From NCBI GenBank assembly GCA_009746045.1, contig RPFO01000103.1:2147857-2211856 (forward strand): a stretch of 64,000 bases of DNA, written 5' to 3'. The stretch's first letter is position 1; each line of letters opens with the position of its first letter. Made by a program: the position numbers and the translations under genes. Source of the DNA: Mesostigma viride. Taxonomy: Eukaryota > Streptophyta > Mesostigmatophyceae > Mesostigmatales > Mesostigmataceae. This document shows, piece by piece, positions 16,439 through 63,610 of the stretch. Under the pieces are notes generated by a model. That model did no database searches and was not told where the DNA came from. It worked only from the letters and a program-made list of their open reading frames with translations.

Positions 16439-16593
16439 ATGGCTACATCCGAGTGGCTCCGAGAAGTCGAACCGGCTCAGCCTGCTACAGAAGGAAAGTT
16501 GGAGAAGAGCCCGGTATTTCGTAATAGACTCGCTAAAGATGGGTATGCAGTTGATTTGCCTGAAGACGTCACAACCCTGTACGACTCGTTCAG
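16439..16593 (+). CDS. LACS: LACS exon 1 with start codon
   Basis: ATG opens 51 codons. [20 protein letters not shown] and the block [12 protein letters not shown] match the N-terminus of plant LACS enzymes, which supports this start. The exon ends AG before GTATTT; the A opening exon 2 completes an Arg codon before [16 protein letters not shown]. Confidence 0.9.
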
Positions 16594-19500
16594 GTATTTC
16601 TTACGGAAACAACGATTTTCATTTCCGAAACGCTGCTTTCGATTATCATGGTAGGCCTTAATAACACGGTCACGAATGCGAAATTCGGTGTGCCGATGCG
16701 CGTCGTTAATAATCGACATTGCCTGTTGTGGTGTGGCTATGTCTGGCGTTTGCATCAGACACGCGGTGGAGAAGCATCCGGAAAATAATTGCCTTGGCTG
16801 GCGTCCGATAGGAACTGACGGCCAGGTGTGTGCACGCTGGGTCATGCCTGGTGATCCGGCCCCGTCCAGTTCCGTCACTTCTTTGTGCGTGTCAGGTATT
16901 TTGAGCCGTGAATTGGATGGACCATGTTGTCATCGCCTCACATCGACGGCATCCCGCGCTATCCACGGGTCGGGCACTCGGGTAGCCCCGTGTCGGTTGC
17001 TGACCTCATACGGGGGTGCGCGAAGCCAATAGGCCGCTCTTCACTGTAGGGTGGCCATGCCCGCTGTCCTGCAGTGAAACCCCTGCTGCATGGATACTGC
17101 CTCGAGTATCTACCAAGACCTTCAATCAGCTCCGGAAGGTTTCTGTTGTTAGCTTCCTTTGGGGTAAATCCAAGACAGCATCTTCCCAGCGCGGTGGCCC
17201 CACGGCGACTGTTGCACGCACGCTTGTACGCCCGATAGTTTTGTGGGCATGGGCTATGAGCTTGCTCATGTTAACCAAGTCGCTGCAAGTACTGATGACG
17301 CACCCACCCCTGCCGTGCCTGCATAATAACACGTAATTACCTTCCATAACCAAATGAATAAATAGTTTGTTCGTGTCCCGACCAATTTCTTTCATGGGTC
17401 ATGTCCCCTGCCCTCTCACCGTAGATGAGAACAGCCTTCTATCCACTGTATTCGTTCAACCTATTTTCACATCCACATCATTTTCTTTGGGTGCCGTGCT
17501 CGATGCCCACCTTCTTCTGTGGGTGCCGTGCGCAGGTACTCTACATTCGTTAGATTTGTGAATTCTATTTTCCACCCTATTCATAGTCCTGCCACCCTAT
17601 TCATAGTCTTGCCTCTCTATTCATAGTCCTGCCACTGCCACTGGTTTTGGCAGGTCCCTCTTTTCTATGCGCCTCCGCCCTGACCCTCCGGCTGCCCACT
17701 GCTTTGGCCTCGCCCTGCCCTGCTACTTTCGGTACGCCGCATGCTGCCCTCCCGCGCATTGTGGCCTCTTCCGCCTTCTTCTTGTGCATCACTCGTGTGC
17801 CTTATCCTGGCCTCCCAACGCCACTGCCTGCTCCTCCTCCCCTTGGCCCACCTGCAGGCGGGCCCCTACCAATGGATGAGCTATCGCACTGTGATGGACC
17901 AGGCCACGCAGGTCGCGTCCGCCCTTCGCCACTGCAAGGTGGACCCGGTACGGTCGTGTGTTGGCCCCTTCCCCCACCGCGGTGTACTGTGTATCCATGG
18001 GTGGGTGCCGCCCCCGCGAGGGGGACCCGGTGCGGTGCTGGTCATGTCGGCTTACGTGGGTGCGCAGGGGGTGAGGGTGCAATTGTGGGGGGGGGGGGCG
18101 CAGGGGGGGTTCTGCTCCTATCGATGAGCTCTTATGTGTGGCGTGAGCGCTCCTATGGGTGGCATGATCCCTCAAAAGGGTGTCGAGCATCATTTGGTTC
18201 CTGCTCCTGCGGGGGCTTCACACGGGTGGCCGCGCACAGAGGTTTGCACACGAACGGCTCGGCTTATTTGGCTAGTCTGTTGTTGTGTTCCCTGATCGGC
18301 TGAACGCGGGGGCACAGAGAGTGCTGTCACTTTGTGCGTTCGGCTCCCCACGTCGTGTGCGCGTGGCGTGGTCACACTCGCAGTGTGCAATACATCAACA
18401 CATGGTGCCTCATGCCGCTTGCCTTGCGCTGCTTCCACGGCTTCAGGGGGCCACCATCATCACCGAAACGTAGCGGCGTGGCCATCATTGCCACCATCAT
18501 CACCATCAAGGAAATGGGATAGCAGGAAACGGGTGCCTCTCGTTGGCAGGCCGTGCAGCTGCTTAGGGCCACATGCATCCCTATTTGTGGAGACAGGCCG
18601 TGCAGCTGCGTAGGGCCACATGCATCCCTATTTGTGGAGACAGGCCATGCAGCTGCTTAGGGCCACATGCATTCCTATTTGTGGAGACAGGCCGTGCAGC
18701 TGCTTAGGGCCACATGCATCCCTATTTGTGGAGACAGGCCATGCAGCTGCTTAGGGCCACATGCATTCCTATTTGTGGAGACAGGCCGTGCAGCTGCTTA
18801 GGGCCACATGCATCCCTATTTGTGGAGACAGGCCATGCAGCTGCTTAGGGCCACATGCATTCCTATTTGTGGAGACAGGCCATGCAGCTGCTTAGGGCCA
18901 CATGCATCCCTATTTGTGGAGACAGGCCATGCAGCTGCTTAGGGCCACATGCATTCCTATTTGTGGAGACAGGCCATGCAGCTGCTTAGGGCCACATGCA
19001 TCCCTATTTGTGGAGACAGGCCATGCAGCTGCTTAGGGCCACATGCATCCCTATTTGTGGAGACCCGCCACGTACCTGCTGCGCTCCTTTTCTCCTCAAC
19101 ATTAAGTGCATACTCTGGTCCGCATGCTCCCCCTTGCCGCCGTCACGCCACACCTGGTGGCTACTACGCTCGCAGTTTGTCATCATCGTGGTACACCGGG
19201 TCAGTTCCATGCTCACAGGCATGCTGCCCAGCATGCGCCAAGCAGGCTGTGCACTGCGGCACGCGTCGTGTAGTTTGCACTTCGCGTCGGCGCCTGCCGT
19301 CTCGTGCCCTGCATGGATATCTCGTACCCCCCTGGCATGTCCCTGTGTATGCCCCTACCCCTGTGCCCCTACCCCTGCGCATGCCCCTGTATCCTGTGTA
19401 CAACCGATGTTCTGCGTACGGCGTGTACTCGGCGCACTGTCTGCTGGCACCCGCACCAGCACTGTCTGCTGGCACCCGCACCAGCACTGTCTGCTGGCAC

Positions 19501-22500
19501 CCGCATTCACGCATTGACGCTGGTTATGGTTATGTTTGCGCATGCCATGTATCTGCCATGTATCTGCCACGTATCTGCCATGTATCTGCCATGTATCTGC
19601 CATGTATCTGCCATGTATCTGCCATGTATCTGCCATGTATCTGCCATGTATCTGCCATGTATCTGCCATGTATCTGCCATGTAACTGCCATGTATCTGCC
19701 ATGTATCGTGTGTGCTAACAAACTCGGTTCCTTATCTGCTGTCACCCGCACCACCAGCACGGCCGCGTGGGCGTGTACTCCATCAACTGCCCCGAGTGGA
19801 TGGTCACTATACAGGTGGGTGGGTGCAGATGGGTGGTCACTATACATGTGACTAAGAGTGGGTGGTCACCACCCAGGTGGGTGCAGAGTGTTGCCCAGGT
19901 GGGCCAGATGACATATTTTTCAAGTCCAGATGAGCATGTGGATGGGTTGAGGCATCGATGGCAAATGCCAGATGTTTTTCGATTTATTATAACAACTTTC
20001 CTTTGTCTTCTTGGATGGCAGCATTATTGTACACGTAGACAGGAGTGCCAGCATGGGGACAGGGACATATCTTGTAGCCCGCAGCAGCTTGCAGTTTGCT
20101 GGCATGGGCAAGTGCATCCTCCTGTTTGCTGAGTGTGCAGCAGCACTCTAGCTTTGTGCATTATATGGTATGGAGATGCCTGCGTGGGGAAGCGCACGAG
20201 GGATGCAATCATGCGCTCACATCGTTGGCATCGTCCTAAGCACAAGTGAAAACAACCCACAATGACCCCATGATGACAACAATGATGACAACAATGATGA
20301 CAACGATGATGACAACATTCTCGCTGTGGCGGTGGTAGACACCATTATCGCAAATCAACCCACTTTGATAAGGGGTTGCTTTGCGAAGCCGTAGGATGAG
20401 GATCCACAAATAGACGGATGGCATGGACGCCGTCGTGGGCTTGTGCCCAGGATGTGAGATGGCTGTGCTGAGCCCGGCGGGTTACATGACGAGCTCTCTG
20501 GTCATGAGGCAGGTGCCGGTCTTCGGTCGCCTGGGGCTGGGCTGGGCTGGGGTGGGGTGGGGTGGGGTGGGGTGGGGTGGGGTGGGGTGGGGTGGGTGGG
20601 GTGGGGTGGGGTGGGGTGGGGTGGGGTGGGGTGGGGTGGGGTGGGGTGGGGTGGGGTGGGTGGGGGTGGGGTGGGGTGGGGTGGGGTGGGGTGGGGTGGG
20701 GTGGGGTGGGGTGGTCTGGGGTGGGGTGGGTGGGGTGGGGTGGGTGGGGTGGGGTGGGGCGGGGGGGGGCGGGGCGGGGCGGGCGGGGCGGGGCGGGGCG
20801 GGGCGGGGCGGGGCGGGCGGGGCGGGGCGGGGCGGGGCGGGGCGGGGCGGGCGGGGCGGGGCGGGCGGGGCGGGCGGCGGGGCGGGGCGGGGCGGGGCGG
20901 CGGGGCGGGCGGGGCGGGGCGGGCGGGGCGGGGCGGGGCGGGGCGGGGCGGGGCGGGGCGGGGCGGCGGGCGGGGCGGGGCGGGGCGGGGCGGGCGGGGC
21001 GGGGCGGGGCGGGGCGGGGCGGGGCGGGGCGGGGCGGGGCGGGCGGGGCGGGGCGGGGCGGGGCGGGGCGGGCGGGGCGGGGCGGGGCGGGGCGGGGCGG
21101 GCGGGGGGGGGGTGGGGTGGGGTGGGGTGGGGTGGGGTGGGGTGGGGTGGGGTGGGTGGGGTGGGGTGGGGTGGGGTGGGGTGGGGGGGTGGGGTGGGGT
21201 GGGGTGGGGTGGGGTGGGGTGGGGTGGGGTGGGGTGGGGTGGGGTTGGGGTGGGGTGGGGGGTTGACCCTGTCTGTCCCACGCATGCGCATCAAGAACAG
21301 GTAGATGGGCGGTGGACCTTGTTGAGGGTCGACATAACGCTGGTGTCATAGGTCACGAGGGTGGCATCAAGAAGGAAGTTTTCCAAGTTGACGTACTACG
21401 TCCTGTTGGTTTGGATGACCCTTTGTTTCTGGTACCTGGAAAGCTTGTGTTAGTCGAACCATCGCCATGTTTTCTTGGGTAATGTGCTGACATCGTTTTG
21501 CTTTGCCGGAATCTGTGCCTACCCCACATCCTCCCCCACATCCTTCCCTTCGGTCATCCTCCCCCGCATCCTGTTTTGTCCAATGCTTGGCATGGCGTCC
21601 GCAGGCGTGCAACATGCAGTCCCTCTACTGTGTTCCCCTGTACGACACCCTGGGTAAGCACAGGGCGCAGGGCACAGGGCACAGAGCACAGAGCGGGCTT
21701 GCATGCTGGCATCTGACCTTTCCTACCTTATAGACGTCGCATGCTAAGACAGTAGCGGTTTGGGTGACAGTGCTAGTTGACCCAGGTGTAGCTACGTGAT
21801 CGCTGCATCATATGGACTACATGATAGTCGTATGGTGTAAAGGGGTGTGTTTGTGAGTTGTGATGTTCTCTTGTTGCCTACTTGGTTGGCAGAGCAAACA
21901 GGGGCGATGTGCACAAGTGGAAGTTTGGGGGTCGGCTGGGGTCCCTGTGGTGGGAGGCGGGACGTGGCTCCCCTTGGTGGATGGACTAGGAATGTGGCGC
22001 CATGTGGCGGAATGTGGAGGGGGGGGGCCACTGGGTGCCGCAGTGCAGTGGGCCAGTGGTGGACTCGCTTGGCACATGCACTAGAAAGAAGTTGTCCATG
22101 TCAGTGTACACTGTCCCTATGTCTTAAGTCCGATCGAGGAACACGATGACCGAGCTGTTCTCCTCACAATCACCCCCTCGTCGTAGTGAAAGTTTGGTTC
22201 TATCCTGGAAGCCTCGTGATCCTAGTCAGCATGTGGATTTCCTCTTCTCCTTGGGTTGGCTTGCGATAATGTTGTTGTCTTGCGCACAGACATGGGGGCG
22301 GTGGAGTTGATTTACGATCACTGGCATTCCTCATAGTTTTCTGTTGCATGCGGCTTTTGTTTCCACTGCCCCTTTGCCAATAGGCGCGGGCGCGGTGGAG
22401 TTCATCGTCAACCACTCAGAAACGGAGGTCATCTTTGTGGACCACCGCAAAGTGGGCGAGGTGAGTTGGGAGGGATGGGGTTGGGTGGGCCGATGGGGTG

Positions 22501-25500
22501 GTCCTGTTGGTTTGGTGTTTCACAGGGTTTTTTCAACGTGGGCCGTGGGTAGCCTTCTCGTTCCCCCCCCTGGCCCTGTCTCAATTACCACCTTTACCTT
22601 TTGCCCGCCCTCCATCTCTTGACTGTTCATCATTAGGCCGTCATTGAGCTTACTGGGTTTGTTCCGGGTCAGAATATGTGCCCGTTTTCTCCGCGCCAAC
22701 CCGGAGTACCGCCAAGCCTGGTGCGGATGCTGGCCTGCGTTCCCTTGTTGCAGTTGTAGTGCCGCACGGCAACACGGCACCCGTAAAGATACTCGCAGCT
22801 AACGATGGGGCAACGAGGAAAGGGGTTCGGTGCTGAACACTTATGGGCGAACGGTTGATAGCTCAGGACTCATGTCATCGGTGGTGAACAGTTGATAGCT
22901 CAGGACTCATGTCATCGGTGGTGAACAGTTGATAGCTCAGGACTCATGTCATCGGTGGTGAACAGTTAATAGCTCATGACGAATGTCATCGGTGGAGATT
23001 GTCTGTGGTGATATCGGCTGGTGGAGATGTTGTCAGTTTTGGATGTTGTCGCGCGGGCAGCGACTGTGTGCCATCGCTCCTCCCCTCGACCAGGAGACTG
23101 CTGCCAAAACAATGCTGCCTGCCCTGATCCACCAGGGAAGGTCCTTCTGCGACGTGCACTTCCGACCTCTGTGCGATCCCTGTGCGATCGTCTCTGGCCA
23201 CGTGCACGCACCCCCGTGGTGACGGCTGGCAAGTCCCCCCTGTCGATAGGGGTGGGATGGTATCGAGTTTATCAGGGTCCCTCCAGATACAGTATATGTA
23301 GATGTATGGGATCTACCCATCCCCGCTGCCGCGGCTATCCCTCTCGGAACAATGCCTTTGCATCTACTGCCTTGGATGCCCTGTTTGTCATCGTGCACGT
23401 GAGTCATTGGAGTCTGCAAACCCTTGATGTAAAGAAAGGTTGATGTAAAGACGGCACTGGGAACACAAACAGCCAGCCCGGCAAAGGTGTTTCGGCCAAC
23501 GTTTCCTGTTGCCTGAGGTCGCGGCACCCACGCACCGACCAGGCTGACACACAGCTGGTTCCGCGGCCATTCCTGATGCCAGTGGGTCTCGCCTCCCCTC
23601 CCCTCCCCGTGGCTCCTGGGACCCTTCCCTCTCCCTAACGGTTGCGTGGCTTCTTCTCCCTTCCACCGGCCATCCATGGATGCCATCCACTAACGCCATC
23701 CATCCTGGGGCATCGTGGGACATTGTGAAGGTTTTTGCCTTCAACCAGAATATGTCCCATGGACTAAAGTGGTCTAAGTGGTCTCACAATTGTGGTTCCT
23801 CCCCCACACCATTACCCCCCCCCCCCCTTCGCTCGCACTGCCTGCCGCGTGGCGCCCACCCTGGTGCCAACAGCTGCTGGAAGCGCTACCCAAGTGCGAC
23901 AAAGTGCGGGGTGAGAGCCGGGACCCACCCAGCCCATACGTGCACGTATAGGCATGACAATCGGCATGAAAGTTGGCACGACGATTAGCAATCTGCAGCA
24001 TTTTACCAGTCGCTGCTTGCCTCGACAATAAGCGGATGACAACCATCTATTGTGGCAGTAGTGCAAGTAGAGCATGCACGATGGCAGTGATGCACAAAGT
24101 GCAAGTAGTACGTGATCTTGTGGTTGTTGTTACAATCTGTATTGGCGGCGATGGATGGCTGCCTGGCGGGGGCGGGCTGGAGAGTCCGGTTCTCATGGTG
24201 CACTTTATGTTATCAGAGAGAAGATACTGATAGGAAAGTCAAGACCAATGCGCAAGCAGGTTTCCTAAGCTTGTCATTCTGTCAATCACAGTCAGTCAAC
24301 CCACCCGACAGGCGGTCAAGTGCACTGTCTGGCGGACAGATCGGCGGCTGAGCGTTGGAGCAGGCGGCTCGGCGGGCGGCCAGCGTGTGGCAGCATGAGC
24401 GCGGCTGATTTATTGAGTGTGCATCGAAAACGCTTCATCTTGCCTAATGGCTCCACTTGTCATCCATGCTTACACTTCCCATCATCCTCGTTCGTGGCGC
24501 CGCTTGCGTTTTTGTGGCACACGTGGCCGTGATCTGGCATTTGCGGTCTGATGGCACTTTTCGGGTATCTGACGTTTGGGGCGTCGCGACTAGGGTTGTT
24601 TGGATGATGGGGGCGTGCTTGTTGTCTCGGTACCGCCCAGTTGGTTTGGGTTGTTGTCTCATGGCGTTGCTGTGTTGGTCATTGGGGCTGCCTTTGTGTT
24701 GCCCCCTCTCGGTGGCACGCGGTCGGCTTCTCCCTTTGTCATGACGTCGGCTGCTCCCTTGGTCGTCGTGACGTCTGCCAGCTCTGGTCCTCTTCGGCAC
24801 CGCCAGCGAGGCCACCAAGACAGACGCGCGCAAGTGCGGGCAGCAGGTGTACACGTGGGAGGAGTTCCTGACACTGGTACGCAAGCATAATGACAGGATT
24901 GCTACGCAAGCATAAGAATGGGATTGTGTAACTTGCTCCAATAGTGCAATATCCAAAGTCAATGCTCTGCCTGGCTCATTTCCGTGGGATGAGCTAGCGG
25001 CGGTGATAAGTCCTTCACAGGGCGATGAACGCATGATCTTCCACCCCATGACAGGCCTTAATTTAGCTCTGAGAGATCGTGGTGGTGCCGGTGCCCGTGG
25101 TGCATCTAGAGCAGGTGTAGTTTACATCCTACCCTTGCAGGAAGTAGCCCAGAATGTATTAAAAGCCATATGCCCCTTCTCAGGGATATGTGCTACATGT
25201 ACTCCCAACGGAGTCATGTTCCTAATTAATTAATTAATTAATTGATTGATTAAATAATGGCGATGAACGCATGCGTATCCAACGATGAGGTGAGTTCCTG
25301 GCGCGAGTGCGCACATGGTGACAGGAACAAGGCCGATGCTCCCTCTGCGCTGATTGGTCGGTGGGTGGCACGCGTGGCCCATGTGGACGCGATGGGCTCT
25401 TGATGCTGGGGGCTCGTAAGCCTGAAGACATGTGAAATATGTTGGCACGATGTGTGTGGAAGACAGGTGAAATATGTTGGCACGATGTGTGTGGAAGACA

Positions 25501-28500
25501 GGTGAAATATGTTGGCACGATGTGTGTGGAAGGGATGAGAGGGTATCCAGAGGTTGTATGGGACAGTTGTGAGTATTGTCTTTTAGATCATACTGCTTAT
25601 CACAATAGTGCAAATAAAGTTCTTTTCATGATGGATTTTAAACCTGGTTAACGTCCAAACAACCTTCCTGGGTCAGTGGCACTGATATGCAATCTTGTGG
25701 TTAGGAACAGGACCGGGGGTGTCTAAAGTGATGGTTGCCAGGCTGCGGTCACCCTGGTTAATGGATTGTTCACCCATGTAATATGTTCTGGTACTTTGAA
25801 TCTTTTCGGGAGATGTCGCCCTGTCATACTTAGCCTTCGATATGGTCTCACGGGGGGCTTGCCTGCTGATAGCCAGTGATCATTAGGTACTGGCACAGAT
25901 AGGTACTGCCACAGATAGGTACTGGCACAGAGAGGTACTGGCACAGATAGGTACTGGCACAGATAGGTACTGGCACAGATAGGTACTGGCACAGAGAGGT
26001 ACTGCCACAGATAGGTACTGGCACAGATAGGTACTGGCACAGATAGGTACTGGCACAGATAGGTACTGGCACAGAGAGGTACTGCCACAGATAGGTACTG
26101 GCACAGAGAGGTACTGGCACAGATAGGTACTGGCACAGATAGGTACTGGCACAGATAGGTACTGGCACAGAGAGGTACTGGCACAGATAGGTACTGGCAC
26201 AGATAGGTACTGGCACAGATAGGTACTGGCACAGATAGGTACTGGCACAGATAGGTATTGATCATAAGGTACTGGCACAGATAAGTACTGGCACATGGGT
26301 TCCAAGCCATGGGAGTGCCTACCTACCAAGATTGATGGTAGGTAGGCACTCCCATGGATCAGGCCGCAGAAAAGGTATTTCCACAACTACCCCCCCTACC
26401 CTCCCATCATATATATGTCGGCGTTATGATTCCGCTTCCAAGGGGTACTGGCGCAGCGGGTTGACCGCCACAATTGCCGCAGGCCCCCCACTCCCATCCC
26501 ACACGGCCACACCGCCACACTAAAAAAAACAATCCCAAGGAATGTCTTATTGGTGCACCTGCGCTCCCTCGCGTTGTTGCGCGGCCGCATTCCTCTGCGT
26601 GCGATCGGCATCACGGGCGACACCCAAGCAAGGTTTTGGGCTGCAGGGGCTGTGTGTTTTGGGAGTTGGTAGAAAAAACACAATTCATATCTTTGTTTGC
26701 GGAGTGAAGTTGGGTCACCTGCTTTAAGGGCGGATGCTTCCAAAGTCGGCGCTGCATCCATGATGATAATAACATTGATGATAATAGTAATAATAGTAGT
26801 TATGATAATGAGGAGGAGGAGGTAATTCAAATATTGATCATTATTTACGGTGTTTTGGAAATAACAAGGAACTTAAATGGAAAATTATTCGTGATGCTGT
26901 TTGCCCGCACCTGACCGCCGCAGGGTGCAGAGAACCCCGCCAAGCCGACACCACCCAAACCGGACGACCTCTGCACCATCATGTACACGAGCGGAACGAC
27001 CGACGTGCCCAAGGTATGGGCGTATAGTGACCCTGCATGCTGGTATAGTGAACCATTGACACACCATCATGTGCACGAGTGGAATGACCCACGTGCCCAA
27101 GGTATAGGGGCGCGTAGGGAAAAGTGATTGCCTGTGTTTCTTACGTTTGGCATCGACTGATCCTTGGCGCCGGCATCGTGCGGACCGTTGCGCCAACGTG
27201 TACGCAAGGGGGACAAGCACCGTGCCCGCGCGATGGGCAATGGATGGCGTACAATGACCTGCACGCTAGTATAGTGAACCATCATGTTCACGAGCGGAGC
27301 GACCGACGTGCCCAAGGTGGGAGGCCAGGTCTTGAATCTGTGATAGTGCTAAAAATAGCTCTTTGATTCGTTGTCGAGAGTTCTGGGGGTTATGCGATGT
27401 TATTGATGGCAACATCATGGCAATGAAGCCTGGATGGGTAGCCTGGGTGGGTGCAGGAAAGGCCTATGAGCTGCGCCAGCACACATGGGGCAGGTTCTGT
27501 GGACGCGTCGGGGCTGCGGTGGGGGCCTACACAGCGTGGACTGTGGTGGCTGGGGAGAGCAGATTCTGCTTGAGTGGCTTTGCTCACCGCCCGCCTACTG
27601 CCCGCCTTGCTTTTGCCCACTGGCTTTGCTCTGGTTTGTCTGTCTCCCTTTTTTCCCTTTGCCGAATGCTGGCTCACAGATGGCCTTAATGGCTTGCTCA
27701 TGTCGCCCCCTTGCCTGCTTCCGTGGCCGTCCCTGCAGGGCGTCATGCTGACGCATGGCATGGTGCTCAACACGATTGGTGCCATGGAGAAGGCCATCAA
27801 GGTGGCGTTTGAGGTGAGGTCATTATAATAGGGCCGGTGCGGTGACTGTAGCGTGCTGGATCGGAACAGCACCCGCAGGGACCACGAGGTCCCTGCCAGG
27901 CCTGGTGGAGGCAGCGCGGTCGCTGTACAAAAGGATTCTTGTCTTTGGTGGGAGATCTTGGCGGTTATTAATATGCAGCTATTTTGATAATGGCATGTGA
28001 AGCCGCACGCATGTAGGTTTCACCCCTGTCTAGAGCATGTTTGTGCTCCAGTGGCTGGAAGTTGCCACATCTGGCAATCCATGACTGTTCATGAAGGATT
28101 GGGGATTATGATGGGTTACTTTTAAGAGGAGCATGACTGTCATGGTTGGCTTCCTTCAACGGGGATATGAGGATTATTATTATTATTTTTATACTTCCTT
28201 CGATTATACCTCCTTAAACACGGATATGAGGACTATCGTTGGCCAGCCAGGTCCAGGATGGATGTACTCGTGAGCCCCTTTGTTCCTGCTATCGCAACAA
28301 CGGTCTTTGGCTACAGTCAAGAGAGATCCGTGTCGCAGCCGATCCGCGCTGCTCATGCTCTCGGCCCTACCGGCCTAACCATTTTTTCGTGGAATCCCCA
28401 TGACCACTCCCCGGTGCCCACGCTGACGTCATCACCCTGCCCGCAGCTACACACCGATGACGTCATCATCTCCTACCTGCCGCTGGCGCACATCTTTGAC

Positions 28501-31500: not shown

Positions 31501-34500
31501 GGTCTAGTGGTCTAGTGGTCTAGTGGTCTAGTGGTCTAGTGGTCTAGTGGTCTAGTGGTCTAGTGGTCTAGTGGTCTAGTGGTCTAGTGGTCTAGTGGTC
31601 TAGTGGTCTAGTGGTCTAGTGGTCTAGTGGTCTAGTGGTCTAGTGGTCTAGTGGTCTAGTGTTCTAGTGTTCTAGTGGTCTAGTGGTCTAGTGGTCTAGT
31701 GGTCTAGTGGTCTAGTGGTCTAGTGGTCTAGTGGTCTAGTGGTCTAGTGGTCTAGTGGTCTAGTGGTCTAGTGGTCTAGTGGTCTAGTGGTCTAGTGGTC
31801 TAGTGGTCTAGTGGTCTAGTGGTCTAGTGGTCTAGTGGTCTAGTGGTCTAGTGGTCTAGTGGTCTAGTGGTCTAGTGGTCTAGTGGTCTAGTGGTCTAGT
31901 GGTCTAGTGGTCTAGTGGTCTAGTGGTCTAGTGGTCTAGTGGTCTAGTGGTCTAGTGGTCTAGTGGTCTAGTGGTCTAGTGGTCTAGTGGTCTAGTGGTC
32001 TAGTGTTCTAGTGTTCTAGTGTTCTAGTGTTCTAGTGGTCTAGTGGTCTAGTGGTCTAGTGGTCTAGTGGTCTAGTGGTCTAGTGGTCTAGTGGTCTAGT
32101 GGTCTAGTGGTCTAGTGGTCTAGTGGTCTAGTGGTCTAGTGGTCTAGTGGTCTAGTGGTCTAGTGGTCTAGTGGTCTAGTGGTCTAGTGGTCTAGTGGTC
32201 TAGTGGTCTAGTGGTCTAGTGGTCTAGTGGTCTAGTGGTCTAGTGGTCTAGTGGTCTAGTGGTCTAGTGGTCTAGTGGTCTAGTGGTCTAGTGGTCTAGT
32301 GGTCTAGTGGTCTAGTGGTCTAGTGGTCTAGTGGTCTAGTGGTCTAGTGGTCTAGTGGTCTAGTGGTCTAGTGGTCTAGTGGTCTAGTGGTCTAGTGGTC
32401 TAGTGGTCTAGTGGTCTAGTGGTCTAGTGGTCTAGTGGTCTAGTGGTCTAGTGGTCTAGTGGTCTAGTGGTCTAGTGGTCTAGTGGTCTAGTGGTCTAGT
32501 GGTCTAGTGGTCTAGTGGTCTAGTGGTCTAGTGGTCTAGTGGTCTAGTGGTCTAGTGGTCTAGTGGTCTAGTGGTCTAGTGGTCTAGTGGTCTAGTGGTC
32601 TAGTGGTCTAGTGGTCTAGTGGTCTAGTGGTCTAGTGGTCTAGTGGTCTAGTGGTCTAGTGGTCTAGTGGTCTAGTGGTCTAGTGGTCTAGTGGTCTAGT
32701 GGTCTGCTACCCGTCACCTAGTGTTCTAGCGTTCGTACCTATCCCCAATCCCCTTTGCACGTGCCTGCATCTGACCCCCTTGCACACGGCTGTGCCGGTC
32801 AAGGTTATTGCAAGCCATCCCCTCTCTCAGGTGCCAAAACCCCATCCTCTCGGGCCCTGAACAGCGCTTACCTTGCCAAGCTGTACGCCGCCATCGCTGT
32901 CTGCTCACTGTCGCGCTGGTTCCTTCCCTGCATACCCGCGCTGGGCGCGCCGCAAGCTCATGCCCCCTCACCAGGCCTCGTGCGTCCCTCCCCGGTCTGC
33001 CGGCCCACCCCACTCCCTCGCTGGCCACGCCGAAAGTCAAATGTTGCCTCATGTCGCCTCACGTTCCCCTTTTGGTGCCTGCCTACCCTACTGCCTGTTT
33101 CCGTGCGCAGCAAGCTCTACTACCTGAACCAGGGCTACGACCACGAGCGAGCCTCCCCCCTGTTTGACCAGCTGGTGTTCGGCAAGGTGGGTCATCTACC
33201 TGTCTGCTCGCACGACGGGTGCGCGGCAGCGTGGGGTGGGTCATTGCCTTACCTGTTGCGGATGGTGGCTGGTCGCTCGTTCCCTGTTGGACCGCTGTGT
33301 CTTTGGACGGGTGGCACATGGTTTGCTCGCCCGTCGCCAAGCAATTGATCCCAGTTGCCGTGCCGTGCCGTGCCGTGCCGTGCCGTGCCGTGCCGTGCCG
33401 TGCCGTGCCGTGCCGTGCCGTGCCGTGCCGTGCCGTGCCGTGCCGTGCCGTGCCGTGCCGTGCCGTGCCGTGCCGTGCCGTGCCGTGCCGTGCCATGCCA
33501 TGCCATGCTTATCAAGTACATAGTTGCCTGTGTTTATGGCATGGCATCACACATAATCGGTGGATCCATGGTCATGTGCCATGGTGCTGTCATCCGCCAC
33601 GGCACCGTCTCCTGCCAGGGCCCTACACAGGTGGAGCCCAACCACTTGAGGGACGCTCGATTTTGATGTGTAATGGATCACACGTTGCCCATGGTGTGTC
33701 CGTTGTTTGGGCGCGTGACGTTGCCTGTGGGCGGCGGTGTGTGACGTTGGCTGCCGTTTGCTGGTGACTTGATTGCTTGCGCCGCGGCGTGCAACCTTGC
33801 CTGTGGTATGGTCGCGTCATCTTGCCTGCCTCCCTGGGGCGTGTCCTATTGTGACTGCCGGCCGGAGTGTCCCCGCGGGATGGCTGCTGCCTCGCCCATG
33901 ACACCTCGCCGGTGCTCTTGTGTGCGTGTTGTGCCTTGGGCCCCTCTTGACAACTCGTGGCCTTGCGTGCGGTGCCGTCGTGTGACCTCCCGCCGTCCTG
34001 TGACCTCCTGCCGTCACGTGACGCGCGCCAGATCCGCGACCGCCTGGGCGGCCGTGTGCGCCTGATCATATCGGGGGCGGCCCCCCTGGGCAAGCACGTG
34101 GAGGACTTCCTCTGCGTCACCATGTGCTGCCCGGTCATCCAGGGATATGGTGCGTGGGGCAGAAACAGTTTGTGGGGCAGAAGAGCATGGGGCAGAAGTA
34201 GTGCGTGCCAGGGACATGGTGTGTGGGGCGGAGCATGAAGATGCGGAGGTTATCCCGTGGACGGCTGTATGTCGACGGTAGCCTGTCGAGCCGTGGGTTG
34301 GATATGGCGTGTCGGGCAGGGTGTTGGGTACGAGGGAAGCCTCGTGCGCTTGTGCACAACCGCCGAGGACATCGGGTGCAGTTCAAGTTCTTCAACGTTA
34401 ATATGGACGTGGGCACTTTGTTCTCCAACCTCCCCTCACCCATCCCCCAACCCCTTTTGTATCCAGGGGTTACAGAGGCATTATTTGTCACGGAGGCATA

Positions 34501-37500
34501 TTTTCATTTGTTTGCTACCGACACGTGCGGCCATTTGCCGCGTCTTCCCTCTTCCCCCATTCTTTTTCTCCCGTCCCTTTCCCATCCTCTCCGCTCTCCG
34601 AGTATGCCCCCTTTCCCTCCTCATGTAAATGCTCCCTCTTTCGTCATGCCCCCCGCACATCCCCTTTCTTTCCCCGTCCACGCTCGCAGGACTGACCAGG
34701 ACCTGAAGCCCCTCCCACCCCTTGTCCCCTTGTCCGTCGTCTTGCCCCCGTGCCTACTGGCCTGACCGAGACGTGTGGCGCATCATTCCCCACCCAGCCC
34801 TCACCCACCTCTCACCCACTCCTCACCCTCCCCAACCCACTTACAACCCACCCCCAAAGCCTGCCAACACACGTCACATTCCTGTCGTTCCACATGCCTG
34901 ACTGAGGCGTTTGCTCGTCCCCTTCTTCCCCCTCATGCATGTCCCTCGTTTCCCCCCTCTTCCTCGCCCTTATTTGCCGTCTTTCCCCCACACACATGCG
35001 CAGGCCTGACCAAGATGTTGATGCCTTCTTCCCCTCCCGCGTCTCATAAGAGCACGCGGCTGCCCCCACTCCCAACCCATCAGTAACCCACCCCTCGCCC
35101 ACCCCTAACCTGTCGTCCTCTGTGCCCCCCTGTTGTCCCGCAGGCCTCACCGAGACGTGCGCCGCCTCCTTCCTGGCCATCCCCGACGGCAGCATGCGCG
35201 GCACCGTGGGCGTGCCCCTGCCCGCACTGGAGATGTGCCTCGAAGCGGTGCCAGAGATCGGCTACTCGCCCAGCGCCGAGCCCATGCGTGGCGAGGTACT
35301 GGCCTGAGCTATTGATAGCGGTTGCTGTCGCTTGCGTTCCCACATGGCATTGTTTGAATAGGGTGCTCACCCAGCAACTAGGCCTACAGGTGTGCGACGA
35401 GGTAACGCTCAAATCATAGCGGTCGCGGGCGCTAAGAACAGCTGGCTCTGGTGCTAAGATTGGCCACTGCTGGCGCTAAGAACAGCCGTTGCTGTTTCGT
35501 AACGCCTCGCTATCCCCTTCTTGACAGTGATCACCCCCCCTTGTCGATATGCCCTTCTTGACAGTGATCATCCCCCCTTGTCGATATCCCCTTCTTGACA
35601 GTGATCATCCCCCCTTGTCGATATGCCCTTCTTGACAGTGATCATCCCCCCTTGTCGATATCCCCTTCTTGACAGTGACCATCCCCCCTTGTCGATACCC
35701 CCTTCTTGACAGTGACCATCCCCCCTTGTCGATATGCCCTTCTTGACAGTGATCGTCCCCCCTTGTCGATACCCCCTTCTTGACAGTGACCATCCCCCCT
35801 TGTCGATATGCCCTTCTTGACAGTGATCATCCCCCCTTGTCGATATCCCCTTCTTGACAGTGATCACCCCCCCTTGTCGATATCCCCTTCTTGACAGTGA
35901 TCACCCCCCTTGTCGATACCCCCTTCTTGACAGTGATCATCCCCCCTTGTCGATATCCCCTTCTTGACAGTGATCATCCCCCCTTGTCGATATCCCCTTC
36001 TTGACAGTGATCATCCCCCCTTGTCGATATGCCCTTCTTGACAGTGATCGTCCCCCCTTGTCGATATCCCCTTCTTGACAGTGATCGTCCCCCCTTGTCG
36101 ATATCCCCTTCTTGACAGTGATCATCCCCCTTGTCGATATCCCTTCTTGACAGTGATCATCCCCCCTTGTCGATATCCCCTTCTTGACAGTGATCACCCC
36201 CCTTGTCGATATCCCCTTCTTGACAGTGATCACCCCCCTTGTCGATATGCCCTTCTTGACAGTGATCATCCCCCTTGTCGATATCCCCTTCTTGACAGTG
36301 ATCATCCCCCCTTGTCGATATGCCCTTCTTGACAGTGATCATCCCCCCTTGTCGATATCCCCTTCTTGACAGTGATCACCCCCCCTTGTCGATATGCCCT
36401 TCTTGACAGTGATCATCCCCCCTTGTCGATATCCCCTTCTTGACAGTGATCATCCCCCTTGTCGATATGCCCTTCTTGACAGTGATCATCCCCCCTTGTC
36501 GATATGCCCTTCTTGACAGTGATCATCCCCCCTTGTCGATATGCCCTTCTTGACAGTGACCATCCCCCTTGTCGATATCCCCTTCTTGACAGTGATCATC
36601 CCCCCTTGTCGATATGCCCTTCTTGACAGTGATCATCCCCCCTTGTCGATATCCCCTTCTTGACAGTGATCATCCCCCCTTGTCGATATGCCCTTCTCGA
36701 CAGTGACCATCCCCCCTTGTCGATATCCCCTTCTTGACAGTGATCATCCCCCCTTGTCGAGCCCCCGCACGTACACCCAACAACGTACACCCAACAACGT
36801 ACACCCAACTACCTCGCGCGCCCTTGCCCCGACGCAGTACACCCCTATACCACACGCACCCACTGCGGCTTTGGGCGTTGGATTGTGGAATTGCATGATG
36901 GGTCCAACCTGCTTGGGCCACACCAGGCACAAGTCAACTTTTTTTCCTATTATTATCAATTATTTTTTAAAAAAGAGAGAGATTCGCATTGCAGTGGTTG
37001 CGTATTTTTCTGTGTTGCCTGCGGTGTCTGCGGTGCCCATGTATCGATTCGCCCGCGAAGTAATTTTTCTTATCAATTAGTATTACTTTAGAATGCGTGG
37101 CGTGCGCCAGCTGTGCCTGCATTGCTCGTGTTTCCACCATTGAACCTGGTGGGCCACACATTGAACCTGTCAGGGTAACCAGGGAGCCAATTATGTTCAT
37201 CTGTTTCCTTGTGTGCGTGGCGTGCGCCAGCTGTGCCTGCGCGGCCCGACAGTGTTCAAGGGCTACTACAAGCGCGACGACCTGACGAGCGCCAACGTGG
37301 ATGAGGACGGCTGGTTCCACACGGGTTGGTGGCGCATGATGAAGTAGCGACAGTGGGGGGGGGATGGGGCCACACAGGTGGGTACGAGCGGGAATCAAGG
37401 CAGGATGCAGGGGTGGGTGGGTGGGTGGGTGCACGATGGGTAGTGGACTTGGGCAAGAATGGCAGCATTGTAGACGGTCGGGTTGCGCGCAGGTGGGTAG

Positions 37501-40500
37501 CACGCCCCGGAGACACACAGTAGCAGTGCAATTGGTGGTGTGCAGGGACCCGTGGCCCTGGCAGGCTGAAACGGATGGGTGTCACGCAGCATGATGCCAG
37601 CGTGGTGCCAAGCAAGGTCTACCAGCTATTGTTGTCACATCGTCGCTGCCGCCCTGCTTCAAGCACCGCCGTTACCTGGGCAAGCGAACGCCTGTGCCAG
37701 CAAGGCCTGTACACATACTGCCACCTGTCCTTTCCTGCCCCAGATGAGGCCGCTGCGGTAGGCTCTAGTGTTTCGTTGTTCCTGCATTCAACGTGCTGAG
37801 TCATCCCGCCTGCCCTCGTTGCCACCTGGCTACCTCGTCGCCACATGTCTCCGGCTCCCCTATCTGCCCTGTTTCCTCCCTCTACCAGCTGTCGCCCTCC
37901 CCCTTTACCGTCGTCAACAGGCGACTTGGGAAGCTCAATTCATGTTGTCAATTCCTGTTTCAATTCTTAAGGTTTCATGTTGGCTCTCCCGATGCTCTGC
38001 CGCCCTCGACCCCCACCCCCAGGCGACACCGCTGACATCCACCGCTTTGTGCCTCTGTGTTTGCTGGCCACGTGCCTTGCCAGCTGCCTTACATCATCGC
38101 CACCACATCATCGCGGACCTTTTTGGACCTTTGTGTTCCCTTTGGTTGCGCGGCTGCCCTGCCCTGCCTCGGCTTCCCCCCCATCACCTCACCCGAAGAG
38201 ATCGTAGATATCAAACCTTATGCTTCTACATCTGCTCTCTATATGCCCTGCCACCTGCCTGCCCCCATCGCCACCTGTCGCGCTCTCCCTCCCCCCCCCT
38301 CCCCTTCCTCCCCTTCCTCCCCTTCCTCCCCTCCCCTCCCCTCCCCTCCCCTCCCTCCCCTCCCCTGGCCCCCTCCCCAGGGGACATTGCGGAGATCAAC
38401 AGCGACAGCGGGTCGCTGCGCATCATTGACCGCAAGAAGAACATCTTTAAGCTGGCGCAGGGGGAGTACGTGGCGGTGGAGCATGTCGAGAACGTGCTTG
38501 GCAAGTGCAGCCTCGTGGACATGGTGGGTGGTCGATACAGTGACCTTGCAGTGGGTTGCAGTGACCGCCTTGCTAGCCTGTAGTGACCTTTGCTGCGTCT
38601 ATAGTGACCTTTGCATGGCCTATCGCAACCTTGTGGTCAAGCCAGCCCAAGCCATGGCCAACGTGGGCATGCGGGCGCTGGGGGGCTGTTGGGTGCGACA
38701 TGTCTGGCGGCGCTTGGATGCTTGCTTGCGGCCTGCTTGCCTTGTATTCGAATGTGATTGAACCATGGCATCGTGTCGGATCGCACTAGGCATTTCCCAG
38801 AGCCTTCGGTGCGCTTGCCGTGGCCCTGCCTCCGGTCCCCCCCCCCCCCCCCCGTGAATCTCCTCCCACGCTCTCCTCCCTGGGGGCACGGGCCGCCAGC
38901 TTCAAGCCAGTTTCCATACTACTACAATTTCAATGCGGTTCCAATGCAGTCACCAGTTCCCAATGCAGTTGCGTGAAATGACTTTAACGGCCTCGCCCGA
39001 TGTGGAACTGGTTACATCTGGCGTGTTTGCCTCCACGATTGCGGTCACTTGCCAGCAGATGGCTTTTCTATAGGGTGGCAACCCCCGTGGCCTCTGGACA
39101 GGATGGTTTTCATTCTTGACAGGCGCAGCGTTGTTACCGGATGCCGGTGCTACTACTACTTTCGTGAGTGTCTGGCCGCCTTGTACCGGGCACCAGGTCT
39201 ATCGAAAGTGGTCTGTGCTGTGGATGGGTGGGCTACCAAGGCCCTGCTCCCATCGCCCCGCCACCCCATGCATGCACTGCCAGATCTGATGGGATGGTTT
39301 GGCCATACATTTGCCGCCCCCTGCATGCCGCCAGATCTGGGTGTACGGCTCCAGCTACCAGTCCTCGCTTGTGGCCGTGGTGGTGCCCAACCAGCCCGCG
39401 CTGCTGGCCTGGGCGGCGTCCACGGCCGAGGGCAAGGACAAGAGCTTTGAGGAGGTGTGCCACCTGGCGTCGGCGCGCGCGCATGTTACGGAGGAGCTCA
39501 AGAACACGGGCAAGGCCGCCAAGGTGGGGGGGGGATGCCAGAAACGACATGGTGGGGGCTGTGATGCGTGGGTGGGACAGTAGCCTTGTCGTAGATGCTG
39601 GTACCATATGGCATCGTGTGTACAAGAACAGGGGCGAGGCTGCGCAGGTGGGGGTTGATGAACAAGTCAATAACAGCGTGCTGGCCTGTGGTTTACTGTG
39701 CGCAAGGTGGGGGTGGATGAACAAGGCAACAACAGCATGCTGGCCTGTGGTTTACTGTGCGCAAGGTGGGGGGTTGATGAACAAGGCAATAGCAGCGTGC
39801 TGGCCTGTGGTTTACTGTGCGCAAGGTGGGGGTTGATGAACAAGGCAACAACAGCGTGCTGGCCTGTGGTTTACTGTGTGCAAGGTGGGGGGTGGATGAA
39901 CAAGGCAACAACAGCATGCTGGCCTGTAGAAGGTGGGGGGTGGATGAACAAGGCAACAACAGCGTGCTGGCCTGTAGAAGGTGGGGGGTGAATGAGCAAG
40001 GCAACAACAGCGTGCTGGCCTGTAGAAGGTGGGGGGTGGATGAACAAGGCAACAACAGCGTGCTGGCCTGTAGTTTACTGTGCGCAAGGTGGGGGGTTGA
40101 TGAACAAGGCAATAACAGCGTGCTGGCCTGTGGTTTACTGTGCGCAAGGGGTTGATGAACAAGGCAATAACAGCGTGCTGGCCTGTGGTTTACTGTGCGC
40201 AAGGTGGGGGTTGATGAACAAGGCAACAACAGCGTGCTGGCCTGTGGTTTACTGTGCGCAAGGTGGGGGGTTGATGAACAAGGCAACAACAGCGTGCTGG
40301 CCTGTAGTTTACTATGCTGGTGACGAACGGCTGGGAAGGTTCGTTGTGGTGAGGGCAGTGGGGGGGTGGCAGCGATGACATGTTGTCTGCTGGCAAAGTA
40401 AGCGGCCACCGCAGAGGCGGATAGTTAACCATTATCAACACTGGGTGATCAAAGAACGCTGGGGATTTGTACACTGGTGACGTCGTCGCCAAGCACAGCG

Positions 40501-41809
40501 GTCATGGTCATTGGCTTTTACAGGTATTGTTACTATACAGGTGCTACTATACAGGTGCTACTATACAGGTGCTACTATACAGGTGCTACTGTACAGGTGC
40601 TACTATACAGGTGCTACTATACAGGTGCTACTATACAGGTGCTACTATACAGGTGCTACTATACAGGCGCTACTGTACAGGTGCTACTATACAGGTAGCT
40701 GTACAGGTGCTACTATACAGGTGCTACTATACAGGTGCTACTGTACAGGTGCTACTATACAGGTGCTACTGTACAGGTGCTACTATACAGGTGCTACTAT
40801 ACAGGTGCTACTATACAGGCGCTACTATACAGGTGCTACTATACAGGTGCTACTATACAGGTGCTACTATACAGGTGCTACTATACAGGTGCTACTATAC
40901 AGGTGCTACTGTACAGGTGCTACTATACAGGTGCTACTATACAGGTGCTACTATACAGCTGGTATGAACATTAACGTCTGCCAGTAGTAATCATTATTGG
41001 CACTGTCGTCAGGACATGTCCCACATCCCTGTGTTTTCCTCACTCATCTCCCCCCGGTCTTCCCCCACCTCATGCTCCCCCCCTCGTCCACCCCCCCCCC
41101 TTTCACCCCCTGCACCCCCCTTTCACCCCCCTGCACCCCCTTTTGCTGGACGCGGCAGCTCAAGGGCTTTGAGTTTGTGAAGGGCGTGATCCTGGAGCCG
41201 CGCCCCTTTGACGTGGAGCGCGACCTGATGACGCCGTCCTTCAAGAAGAAGCGTCCACAGCTGCAGAAGTACTACCAGGTGAGCGGCATCTGTATCGTGC
41301 CCGGTCAGCGGAGAGTCAACGTTTGAGTGGCGGTCACTGTGCTGCCCGCTCTACCACTTGTCCTCCCCATAGGGCAAGTGTCTTGCTAACCGACATCCAT
41401 CGGCGTTGGGGCACCCATCCAGACATGATGAAGCGGTCGTCGTGTTTTGCCTGCCTGTCCAATACCCACTTAAGCATCCATTCTGCCAACAACCCACGAA
41501 CCCATCAACCACCGTAGAATGGCGCATCATTGGGGGGGGGGGGGTATCGTATCGGAGCCACCCACCATTTGCTTTGTGCGAGCCACCCACTATTTGTTTT
41601 GTGTGAGCCACCCACCATTTGTTTTGTGCGAGCCACCCACCATTTGCTTTGTGCGAGCCACCCACCATTTGTTTTGTGCGAGCCACCCACCATTTGTTTT
41701 GTGCGAACCACCCACCCTCCTTTGTGCGAGCCACCCACCAACCGGCGTCTGACCGACCCGCCAGGCGGGCATCGACGAGCTGTACAAGAACATGCAGCCG
41801 GCGGCGTAA
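16439..41809 (+). CDS. LACS: Long-chain acyl-CoA synthetase, complete, 21 exons
   Basis: Exons: 16439-16593, 16759-16825, 17858-17947, 19758-19814, 21605-21653, 22384-22460, 23874-23910, 24782-24876, 26924-27013, 27739-27813, 28447-28557, 29358-29445, 30005-30071, 33111-33186, 34032-34149, 35144-35295, 37231-37324, 38381-38523, 39335-39523, 41159-41278, 41765-41809. They total 1,995 bases: 664 codons plus TAA, the usual plant LACS length, with all phases matching. The enzyme activates long-chain fatty acids to acyl-CoA by way of an acyl-AMP. Blocks in order: N-terminal [43 protein letters not shown], the P-loop [100 protein letters not shown] and [14 protein letters not shown]. There is no transit peptide or C-terminal SKL, so a cytosolic or ER-membrane-associated form is likely. 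The P-loop has Asp where Gly is expected. Coding sequence is under 8% of the span. Confidence 0.95.
18535..19065. repeat. 47-bp minisatellite in LACS intron 3
   Basis: About eleven copies of a unit containing gcagctgcttagggccacat and gcatccctatttgtggagac. Copies are nearly identical, with C/T variation at two sites that alternates along the array, which suggests higher-order expansion of pairs. Confidence 0.94.
19437..19510. repeat. LACS: Triplicate acceptor-like repeat before LACS exon 4
   Basis: Three 25-bp units of ctgctggcacccgcaccagc resemble the true acceptor region at 19736-19757 (ctgctgtcacccgcaccacc then AG). Each ends in a possible CCAG acceptor. Confidence 0.75.
19535..19712. repeat. 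12-bp minisatellite (CCATGTATCTGC)n
   Basis: About 14 units in LACS intron 3, directly upstream of exon 4. Tryptophan/histidine-rich and Cys-His-Val ORFs are repeat shadows. Confidence 0.95.
20540..21265. repeat. Pentanucleotide (GGGGT)n-(GGGGC)n-(GGGGT)n block
   Basis: LACS intron 4 holds three consecutive blocks: GGGGT to about 20758, GGGGC from about 20759 to 21108, then GGGGT again. Occasional four-base units break the period. All G runs lie on the LACS sense strand, so the pre-mRNA carries more than 100 G tracts. Confidence 0.96.
22845..22985. repeat. 37-bp tandem repeat, about four copies
   Basis: The unit contains gaacagttgatagctcagga and ctcatgtcatcggtgg, in LACS intron 6. The last copy has diverged. 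Confidence 0.88.
25020..25256 (+). mobile_element. LINE-like 3' end with TTAATTAA tail in LACS intron 8
   Basis: The segment shares long stretches with 49535-49750 (inverted), with the split repeat at 48020-48072/49415-49500 and, more weakly, with 46600-46700. Shared text includes gaagtagcccagaatgtatt and ctacatgtactcccaacgga. It ends in an attaattaattaattaatt tail, taken as the poly-(TTAA) 3' end of a retroelement. Confidence 0.7.
25436..25535. repeat. 35-bp tandem repeat, three copies
   Basis: The unit contains ggtgaaatatgttggcacga followed by tgtgtgtggaaga, in LACS intron 8. Confidence 0.88.
25887..26295. repeat. 16-bp minisatellite (AGGTACTGGCACAGAT)n
   Basis: About 26 units in LACS intron 8, with tactgccac and cagagagg variants interspersed. 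A 24-bp inverted repeat around 26309-26356 (tgggagtgcctacctaccaa and its complement) follows directly. Confidence 0.95.
26924..27013 (+). CDS. LACS: LACS exon 9: adenylate-forming P-loop with a Gly-to-Asp change
   Basis: Thirty codons, phase 0. The AMP-binding signature reads [13 protein letters not shown], continued by G in exon 10. LACS enzymes normally have SGTTG-x-PKG. The codon is GAC rather than GGC, one base away. Degenerate copies of the exon end follow at 27061-27108 and 27279-27322. Confidence 0.92.
30543..32735. repeat. 8-bp satellite (TAGTGGTC)n, about 2.1 kb
   Basis: LACS intron 13 carries roughly 264 head-to-tail 8-bp units from about 30593 to 32703. The TAGTGTTC variant is concentrated at the left end and otherwise appears in small clusters. 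The array is bracketed by direct repeats of ctgctacccgtcacctagtg at about 30543, 30578 and 32704. Every unit contains CTAG, and no ORF crosses it. Confidence 0.97.
33357..33507. repeat. (TGCCG)n pentanucleotide microsatellite
   Basis: About 28 TGCCG units followed by three TGCCA units, in LACS intron 14. The Ala-Val-Pro-Cys-Arg and Thr-Ala-Arg-His-Gly ORFs are shadows. Confidence 0.97.
35515..36760. repeat. 37-bp minisatellite, about 34 copies
   Basis: The unit holds cccttcttgacagtgatcat then a C run and ttgtcgatat, in LACS intron 16. C-run length and single positions vary between copies. There are no unique spacers, so it is not a CRISPR-type array. Confidence 0.97.
38381..38523 (+). CDS. 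LACS: LACS exon 18: fatty-acyl-CoA synthetase signature
   Basis: Together with the end of exon 17 (DGWFHTG) it encodes [20 protein letters not shown] and [17 protein letters not shown], the FACS signature that sets acyl-chain preference and bends the C-terminal lid. The acceptor is CTCCCCAG after a long CT tract. Confidence 0.93.
39655..40315. repeat. LACS: 60-bp (and 46-bp) minisatellite carrying donor-like motifs
   Basis: Units contain gcgcaaggtgggggttgatg, aacaaggcaacaacagcgtg and ctggcctgtggtttactgt. A shortened form lacks the tttactgtgcg part. Each unit repeats an AAG/GTGGGG donor like the one ending LACS exon 19 at 39523. The first unit is preceded by a degenerate copy of the exon end at 39620-39655. 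Confidence 0.92.
40535..40960. repeat. 14-bp minisatellite (ACAGGTGCTACTAT)n
   Basis: About 30 units in LACS intron 19 with occasional ctgtac and aggcgc variants. Each unit contains a CAG/GTGCTA donor-like motif. Confidence 0.95.
41563..41747. repeat. 25-bp minisatellite upstream of LACS exon 21
   Basis: About seven copies of gagccacccaccatttgttt followed by tgtgc, ending 18 bases before the final acceptor at 41764. Confidence 0.93.
41765..41809 (+). CDS. LACS: LACS exon 21 with stop codon
   Basis: The acceptor GACCCGCCAG precedes [14 protein letters not shown] and TAA (41807-41809). The C-terminus lacks a peroxisomal targeting signal. Confidence 0.9.
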   Translation, partial: AGIDELYKNMQPAA

Positions 41810-43574: not shown

Positions 43575-44340
43575 TAAGTCGGCCAGCAACTGATCCGTAT
43601 TGTTAATTGCAGGTCTACCCGCCCTGCGGGGCTTGTCCTTGGGGCCAGGTCAGGATATGCCGCCCTGCAGGCTGGCCAAGCCGCTGGGGGCCGGCCAGAC
43701 CAAGGGCGGTGTCTACCTGACTGCTTCGAGCAAGATGTCCTACAACTGCTATCCTACGCTGCCTAATCTCATCCGAAATACGGGGCATACCCTTATACAA
43801 AGACTTTAGCGCCCTATGCGTGAAAAACCCTACATTCAGGACCTGTCGGAGCATCCTGTCTACTGTGCCGTTCAGCCGGGTGACCAGCTTGTCCATGAGC
43901 GTCCATGCCTCGGCGCCGTATGTGAGCACCGTGAGGACCAGGACCTTGAAGAGCACGCGCTTGCGGTCCTCGCCAAGGTCCTTCAAGTGCCAGTAGGTGT
44001 TGAGCGAGCGGAGCCTGGCCCAGGCCAGGCCAATGCGGGTGTCCACATCAGTCGGCGGTGTCAGGGAGCATGCTCCCCAGCAGTTTGAAGCGATCACGGA
44101 ACTGGACCTCAGACCCGTCGACTGTCGAGCAGCAGCGGGAGTGGCGGGCGAGTGGTAGCACCAATCACCATCGCCTCTGTTTTGACGCTAATCGCGCCCG
44201 CGCCCCCAAGCTAGCCCAGACAGTCCAGTCAGGTCTGAATGTGCTCGGGGCGTTCGATGAGGGCGGTATCATCCGCATAAATCAGGTCGGGCAGGCGGTA
44301 AACAGGGCCACCACCGCCCTTGCTGCGCTCGCTAATTAAT

Positions 44341-52573: not shown

Positions 52574-63610
<11,037 letters not shown>

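Follow-up and report, generated by a model that had tools for sequence, protein, structure and literature searches.

The window analysed here is the whole 64,000-nt stretch of Mesostigma viride DNA at positions 2,147,857 to 2,211,856 of contig RPFO01000103.1 (assembly GCA_009746045.1), in which three genes were modelled. The assembled model of a long-chain acyl-CoA synthetase (LACS) gene has 21 exons at 16439-41809 on the plus strand, a 1995-nt open frame and GT-AG borders at every intron; its 664-aa product is 100% identical to database protein P0001 (jgi/Mesvir1/502). A second Mesvir1 protein, P0002, is 65% identical to the same product. Two partial models, each with a frame open across the modelled splices, lie on the minus strand: seven exons at 63610-57928 and five at 4321-534. 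We take these to be a SUMO-protease-like and a TIC62-like gene, names that follow the original prediction. Together, the three genes have 30 introns and 60 junction sides. For the M. viride genome as a whole, a mean intron length of 1142 bp has been given, with repeats making up 30.1% of intron space (PMC6947507).

The original prediction held that at least 11 of the 21 LACS exons have diverged copies of their own splice junction in the adjacent intron. Using a query limited to 60 nt of exon plus 40 nt of intron, a strict alignment scoring (+5/-5/-15/-5) and non-adjacent introns as the null, we found such copies at a score of ≥85 for 13 of the 21 (exons 3, 4, 6, 8, 9, 12, 13, 14, 15, 16, 17, 18 and 19). 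Across the three genes, 15/60 sides had a copy at ≥85 (null 0.43% per side) and 19/60 at ≥70 (null 2.2% per side). The SUMO-protease-like and TIC62-like genes, in which copies had also been proposed, do contain them, more weakly than LACS: 2/20 sides at ≥85, one in each gene (SUMO exon 3 and TIC exon 2). Fourteen of the 15 positions named beforehand were recovered as junction copies at ≥85, the exception being 34684, where nothing reached 70. When these positions were rechecked one by one, four rows were uninformative: 27061, 29901 and 34203 matched the junction itself or its tract, so that their recovery is based on the strict-scoring run, and 34684 matched the copy at 34735. A looser alignment gave 58 records at ≥90, many of them doubtful, and the strict scoring superseded it.

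Downstream of LACS exons, all on the plus strand, copies of the donor junction that keep the GT lie at 18009..18036 (exon 3, ending at 17947; score 90), 19856..19883 (exon 4, ending at 19814; score 100), 25292..25326 (exon 8, ending at 24876; score 85), 33282..33336 (exon 14, ending at 33186; score 85) and 34208..34232 (exon 15, ending at 34149; score 95). Exon 9, which ends at 27013, is followed by three copies: the first at 27062..27120 (score 195, GT kept, exon part 36/40 identical), a degenerate second at 27183..27274 (score 125, GT lost) and a third at 27275..27318 (score 190, GT kept, exon part 39/42 identical). The copy of the exon 19 donor at 39623..39654 (exon end 39523; score 110, GT kept) runs directly into a 60-bp minisatellite at 39641..40317 (TRF and alignments), whose unit carries a CAAG/GTGGGG-like exon 19 donor sequence and was probably derived from it.

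Acceptor-junction copies lie upstream of their exons on the same strand. They were found at 22280..22322 for exon 6 (start 22384; score 85, AG kept), at 29122..29210 for exon 12 (start 29358; score 125, AG lost) and at 37094..37120 for exon 17 (start 37231; score 135, 27/27 identical). Exon 13, starting at 30005, has two, at 29798..29841 (score 85, AG lost) and 29876..29931 (score 120, AG kept), the latter separated by about 90 nt from the neighbouring copy as well as from the junction. Exon 16 (start 35144) has three, at 34735..34789 (score 130, AG lost), 34881..34934 (score 100, AG lost) and 34999..35032 (score 85, AG kept), and exon 18 (start 38381) has two, at 37986..38045 (score 90, AG kept) and 38154..38214 (score 85, AG lost). 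On the minus strand, tandem units (TRF) reach into the end of SUMO-protease-like exon 3 (61454-61176) at 61075..61186, where a 27-bp unit overlaps 11 exon nt, and a donor copy scoring 95 lies at 61123-61075. The donor-junction copy of TIC62-like exon 2 (3590-3374) is at 3187..3234 (minus strand; score 85, GT kept).

Copies scoring ≥80 cover about 8-53 nt of exon and 2-40 nt of intron within the 60 + 40 nt query. An assembly artefact is an unlikely source, judging from the sequences themselves, because 33 of these 44 copies are about 10-30% diverged. A comparison with shuffled introns, which the original prediction had proposed as a check, came out in its favour: with 40-nt exon-only queries, the first test and a weaker one than junction-spanning queries, 9/40 LACS sides had a match at p≤0.05 on the expected side (upstream for acceptors, downstream for donors), compared with 0/40 on the wrong side and 1/40 inverted. 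Junction-spanning queries raised the LACS count to 17/40 at p≤0.05 and 12/40 at the lowest possible p; the corresponding figures were 32/158 and 7/158 for intron-interior windows, and 11/78 and 7/78 for windows from the 4.7-15.5 kb stretch. With other introns as the control, 23/60 sides of the three genes were positive at p≤0.05, against 4/60 on the wrong side and 30/257 intron-interior windows. As an observation, the junction copies are real.

Junction copies at neighbouring and distant loci

Sampling outside the window covered 200 kb around it and, on the same contig, a 50-kb region at a distance of about 1.8 Mb. Exons were called by a predictor trained on the window genes, which in the window returned 27 of the 33 modelled exons exactly, plus 12 other predictions; all exons outside the window are predictions, and every locus lies on one contig. 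For 92 filtered predictions in the 200 kb, 28/152 testable sides had an expected-side copy at ≥85 and 11/152 a wrong-side copy, where chance would give about 1.8 and about 1.5, in a set that includes tandem arrays mistaken for exons. Twenty-four neighbouring exons, picked by eye from 107 outside predictions after exclusion of those that were mobile-element-like, repeat-like or doubtful, gave 12/46 on the expected side and 2/46 on the wrong side; the picking was not blind, because it was done after the result for the 92 predictions had been seen. At the far locus, 4 of 21 predictions were mobile-element-like and were removed before testing, and the remaining 17 gave 9/32 and 0/32.

We pooled the three window genes, the neighbouring predicted exons and the far locus, after masking every array that was ≥100 bp long and had ≥3 copies. 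A direct copy at ≥85 was present on the expected side of 34/137 sides, on the wrong side of 2/137 and in inverted orientation at 0/137, which bears out the predicted polarity of acceptor copies upstream and donor copies downstream. Same-side flanks of other loci served as the null, at 0.21% per side or about 0.3 expected among 137. About one in four tested exon-intron junctions in M. viride thus has a worn, same-direction copy in the neighbouring intron. The distance between copy and junction has a median of 207 nt and a range of 57-908 nt (49 copies at ≥90), distances below about 40 nt being invisible by design.

Short or pyrimidine-rich matches do occur, and weak scoring yields many doubtful ones, as would be expected if the copies were chance similarities arising from shared splice motifs, polypyrimidine tracts or low complexity. 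Set against the masked-array null, however, the pooled count makes this explanation extremely improbable. For the whole set at ≥85 it is refuted by the same-side controls, and single weak copies may yet be due to chance.

Origin of the copies

We think it probable (roughly 0.85) that the copies are direct local duplicates, relics of minisatellite-type tandem duplications over the exon-intron boundary, known as mirages, that have decayed in the intron while the real junction was maintained by selection. Slippage, template switching or unequal exchange would double a unit that holds some of an exon end together with some intron sequence, with unit lengths in the clearest cases of 27, 40, 66 and about 90 bp. 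The same protein would be made only if the spliceosome used the copy joined to the intact exon; spare copies of exon starts would then be left upstream and spare copies of exon ends downstream, both drifting freely, some growing into arrays and most fading. The polarity could arise in this way without any special process, because the duplicate that is used is the one joined to the intact exon. Junction duplicates would also remain recognisable for longer than duplicates internal to introns, because their exon member changes slowly and its loss would not be tolerated. Slippage or unequal exchange had been suggested from the outset, and tandem duplication is supported by the direct local copies and by arrays that reach into exons.

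Three such arrays have a direct tandem unit that spans an exon-intron boundary. The young state of a junction duplication is seen in a predicted gene nearby (C1480:2092685), where a 66-bp x 4.9 array with a 91% match begins with a unit that contains the final 16 nt of an exon. Another predicted exon, C1480:2103723, has a 40-bp unit in 2.5 copies, and SUMO exon 3 has one of 27 bp in 2 copies. Wide re-alignments returned mostly self-matches, the informative rows being 44827 (C1480:2092685), the tail of 10681, 46574 and LACS exon 9. Boundary-crossing tandem duplication followed by decay predicts just such a gradation, from newly formed arrays to barely recognisable relics. The suggestion that copies could seed intron minisatellites also holds for some: SUMO intron 3, LACS intron 19 and the two neighbouring predicted exons.

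The copy signal is highest at the junction and fades over about 40-80 nt on either side. Exon-side 40-nt queries had matches in 14/57 cases at the junction, 5/50 at 20 nt into the exon and 1/37 at 40 nt; for the intron flank, the counts were 15/52 at the junction, 13/51 at 20 nt, 7/50 at 40 nt and 7/50 at 80 nt, with 58/514 in intron interiors. One result runs against plain decay: identity inside the alignments is 80% on the intron side and 77% on the exon side, although the intron side is expected to decay faster. This comparison is a weak one, because local alignment trims dissimilar ends. In an anchored identity profile the two sides fall alike: identity is 0.76 at the junction and has dropped to about 0.6 at a distance of 30-40 nt, compared with about 0.5 for random anchors; the expected difference in decay between exon and intron was not seen in this profile, which does not separate the models.

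The exon 17 copy points in another direction. Over 27 nt it is a perfect match, offset by 120 nt, and its 60-nt flanks have an ungapped identity of only 11/60 and 16/60, a pattern that would not be predicted by a plain 120-bp tandem unit; a short templated insertion in the recent past might account for the copy, as might gene conversion between older copies. Extended to the whole set, the reading would be that the copies are short templated insertions, made by template switching or as filler DNA in break repair, in place of tandem units. Many alignments (25-60 nt) are indeed shorter than their offset (60-430 nt). Template switching should nevertheless yield both orientations, and inverted copies are absent from the pooled sides; moreover, clear tandem arrays that begin in an exon exist, and the exon 13 copies recur at about 90 nt. 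As a general origin, we regard templated insertion as improbable.

The excess of copies at junctions could also mean that duplication itself is more frequent at splice junctions, which would then be true hot spots and not just places where more duplicates survive; DNA breaks coupled to transcription or splicing are one conceivable cause. Intron-internal local duplicates are themselves common (17/297 tests at ≥85, 0.6 expected), and against these the 19/59 junction sides with a local copy at ≥85, counted without an exon requirement (13/59 with it), represent a 5.6-fold excess (p 1e-7). When the exon part of the query was mutated in a way that mimics drift (d=0.2), 11.1/59 sides remained, 3.3-fold over the interiors (p 0.002); substitution survivorship alone is insufficient for the whole excess, because this thinned count still exceeds the interiors. 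The intron-only flanks at junctions, cited above, likewise exceed the interior rate. Conversely, an additional factor of up to about 2 would be expected, because either member of an interior pair is deletable but only one member of a junction pair. This would leave about 1.6-fold (Poisson p 0.08), which does not establish a hot spot, and the splice motifs in junction flanks are under constraint themselves. Survivorship may therefore explain most of the roughly 5.6-fold excess, and a hot spot seems unlikely. We are equally doubtful of a bolder form, in which breaks coupled to transcription or splicing repeatedly copy the ends of exons into the adjoining intron, so that Mesostigma introns grow outward from their own junctions. 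Were it true, such copies would continually provide material for minisatellites and new splice sites.

Splice sites and reading frame in the copies

The original prediction allowed that the copies could act as decoy splice sites, and selection might keep them as decoy, back-up or regulatory sites. The GT is retained in 26/31 donor copies, slightly more than the 21.9 expected from other sites (p 0.12), six of the 31 stemming from one exon's array region; the AG is retained in 7/13 acceptor copies, where 7.7 are expected (p 0.78). These counts come from all 33 modelled exons of the window plus 21 of the 24 chosen neighbours; the far locus did not contribute. Extensions would keep the frame in 17/44 cases, near the chance value of one third. 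Strong splice-site matches in intron interiors have no sense excess, with 45 sense and 49 antisense donors and 33 and 50 acceptors. Bare AGGT does have one (127 sense, 79 antisense), but it is gone once tandem arrays are masked (61 and 77). In addition, the annotated protein, a single database entry, is identical to the LACS model, which uses none of the copies. The decoy proposal thus finds little in its favour, and we consider it very unlikely that selection maintains the copies.

Differences between copy and exon fall at 48/234 first, 41/234 second and 71/238 third codon positions in 26 copies (third against first plus second, p 0.0016, with copies of one exon not independent). Such a distribution would result from drift at every site of the copy, combined with drift at chiefly the third positions of the exon. 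On the same counts, coding constraint was rejected for the copies: the third-position excess is mild, and there is therefore no sign that they are alternative exons.

Relation to known boundary duplications

According to the original prediction, no described class of element was known to behave in this manner, but one exists. Mirages are minisatellites of lancelet genes, described for Adh3, the globins, TnC and PGBD5 (PMC3087553, PMC3902484); TnC and PGBD5 were added by the later paper, in which the PGBD5 copies are described as imperfect (PMC3902484). The Mesostigma arrays at SUMO exon 3 and at the two neighbouring predicted exons share the direct unit over the boundary. As in the lancelet class, 5' and 3' boundaries are both affected, with acceptor and donor copies present in LACS and at the far locus. 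Several loci are involved, in the window, its neighbourhood and the far region, all on one contig and, outside the window, in predicted exons. The decayed copies are direct, junction-spanning and local, and probably go back to tandem units as well. An introner element, with similar copies dispersed among unrelated genes, was considered and rejected: flanks at other sampled loci match at ≥85 in 0.21% of cases, compared with 25% for a junction's own intron.

What is new relative to the known mirages is the lineage, the frequency and the age series. The lancelet examples, as far as these papers describe them, are repeat clusters at a handful of animal loci, whereas in this green alga about a quarter of the tested junctions are affected, often by decayed single or few copies that form a series from array to relic. 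No report of mirages in algae was found in the limited library of literature that we searched. If the pattern is genome-wide, it would suggest that mirages are not peculiar to lancelets, and a streptophyte alga would record the rate and tolerance of boundary-crossing tandem duplications from fresh array to faint relic. The tandem-duplication routes proposed for intron growth, sliding and gain would become directly countable. It would also suggest that selection on the protein alone can yield seemingly directional copying of junctions.

Related events have been described in other lineages. In human genes, internal tandem repeats occur at the borders between exons and introns (De Grassi and Ciccarelli 2009, PMC2812944), where, as here, minisatellite expansion takes place at the boundary and alters gene structure; unlike the Mesostigma copies, which the annotated protein ignores, the human repeats are described as recent, variable between paralogs and able to form novel introns (PMC2812944). 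Mutations of the same type, close to such boundaries or across them, are described for potato RdRp, where an intron was gained through tandem duplication (PMC4974935), and for Drosophila, as tandem duplication or intron sliding (PMC2891723). In those accounts the events create or shift introns, whereas in Mesostigma the spare copy appears to have been taken up by existing introns.

Junction copies at LACS exon 17 and at a predicted exon outside the window

The acceptor junction of exon 17 of the LACS (long-chain acyl-CoA synthetase) gene is duplicated perfectly over 27 nt at window 37094-37120, and the flanks around this copy are dissimilar to those at the real junction. A simple 120-bp tandem unit does not account for the exon 17 copy. 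At L016 (C1480:2092685-2093190), a locus elsewhere on the contig that holds the window (C1480), a 66-bp array begins within the end of a predicted exon. Farther from the junction than this array, at 336 and 452 nt, lie two more copies that match 28 and 26 exon nt, compared to 16 nt for the inner array units.

Long arrays and trinucleotide runs

An 8-bp unit (CTAGTGGT; 98% match) is repeated over 2.1 kb (window 30592-32705), and this array takes up most of LACS intron 13. Other long arrays in the gene have a 37-bp unit repeated 34 times (window 35507-36760) or the unit TGGGG (window 20532-21260). Window 55469-55703, close to the minus-strand model of the SUMO-protease-like gene, contains long runs of two trinucleotides, TTG x 60 followed by TGC x 19; on the minus strand they can be read as an Asn/Ser-rich stretch.

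Mobile-element-like frames

Between the LACS and SUMO-protease-like genes lie fragments that we take to resemble reverse transcriptase (window 43834-47411), and similar frames are also present in the window's flanks. Several repeated predicted open frames occur in both orientations in the right flank (L005-L011, about C1480:2244000-2311000); these look like a mobile element family.
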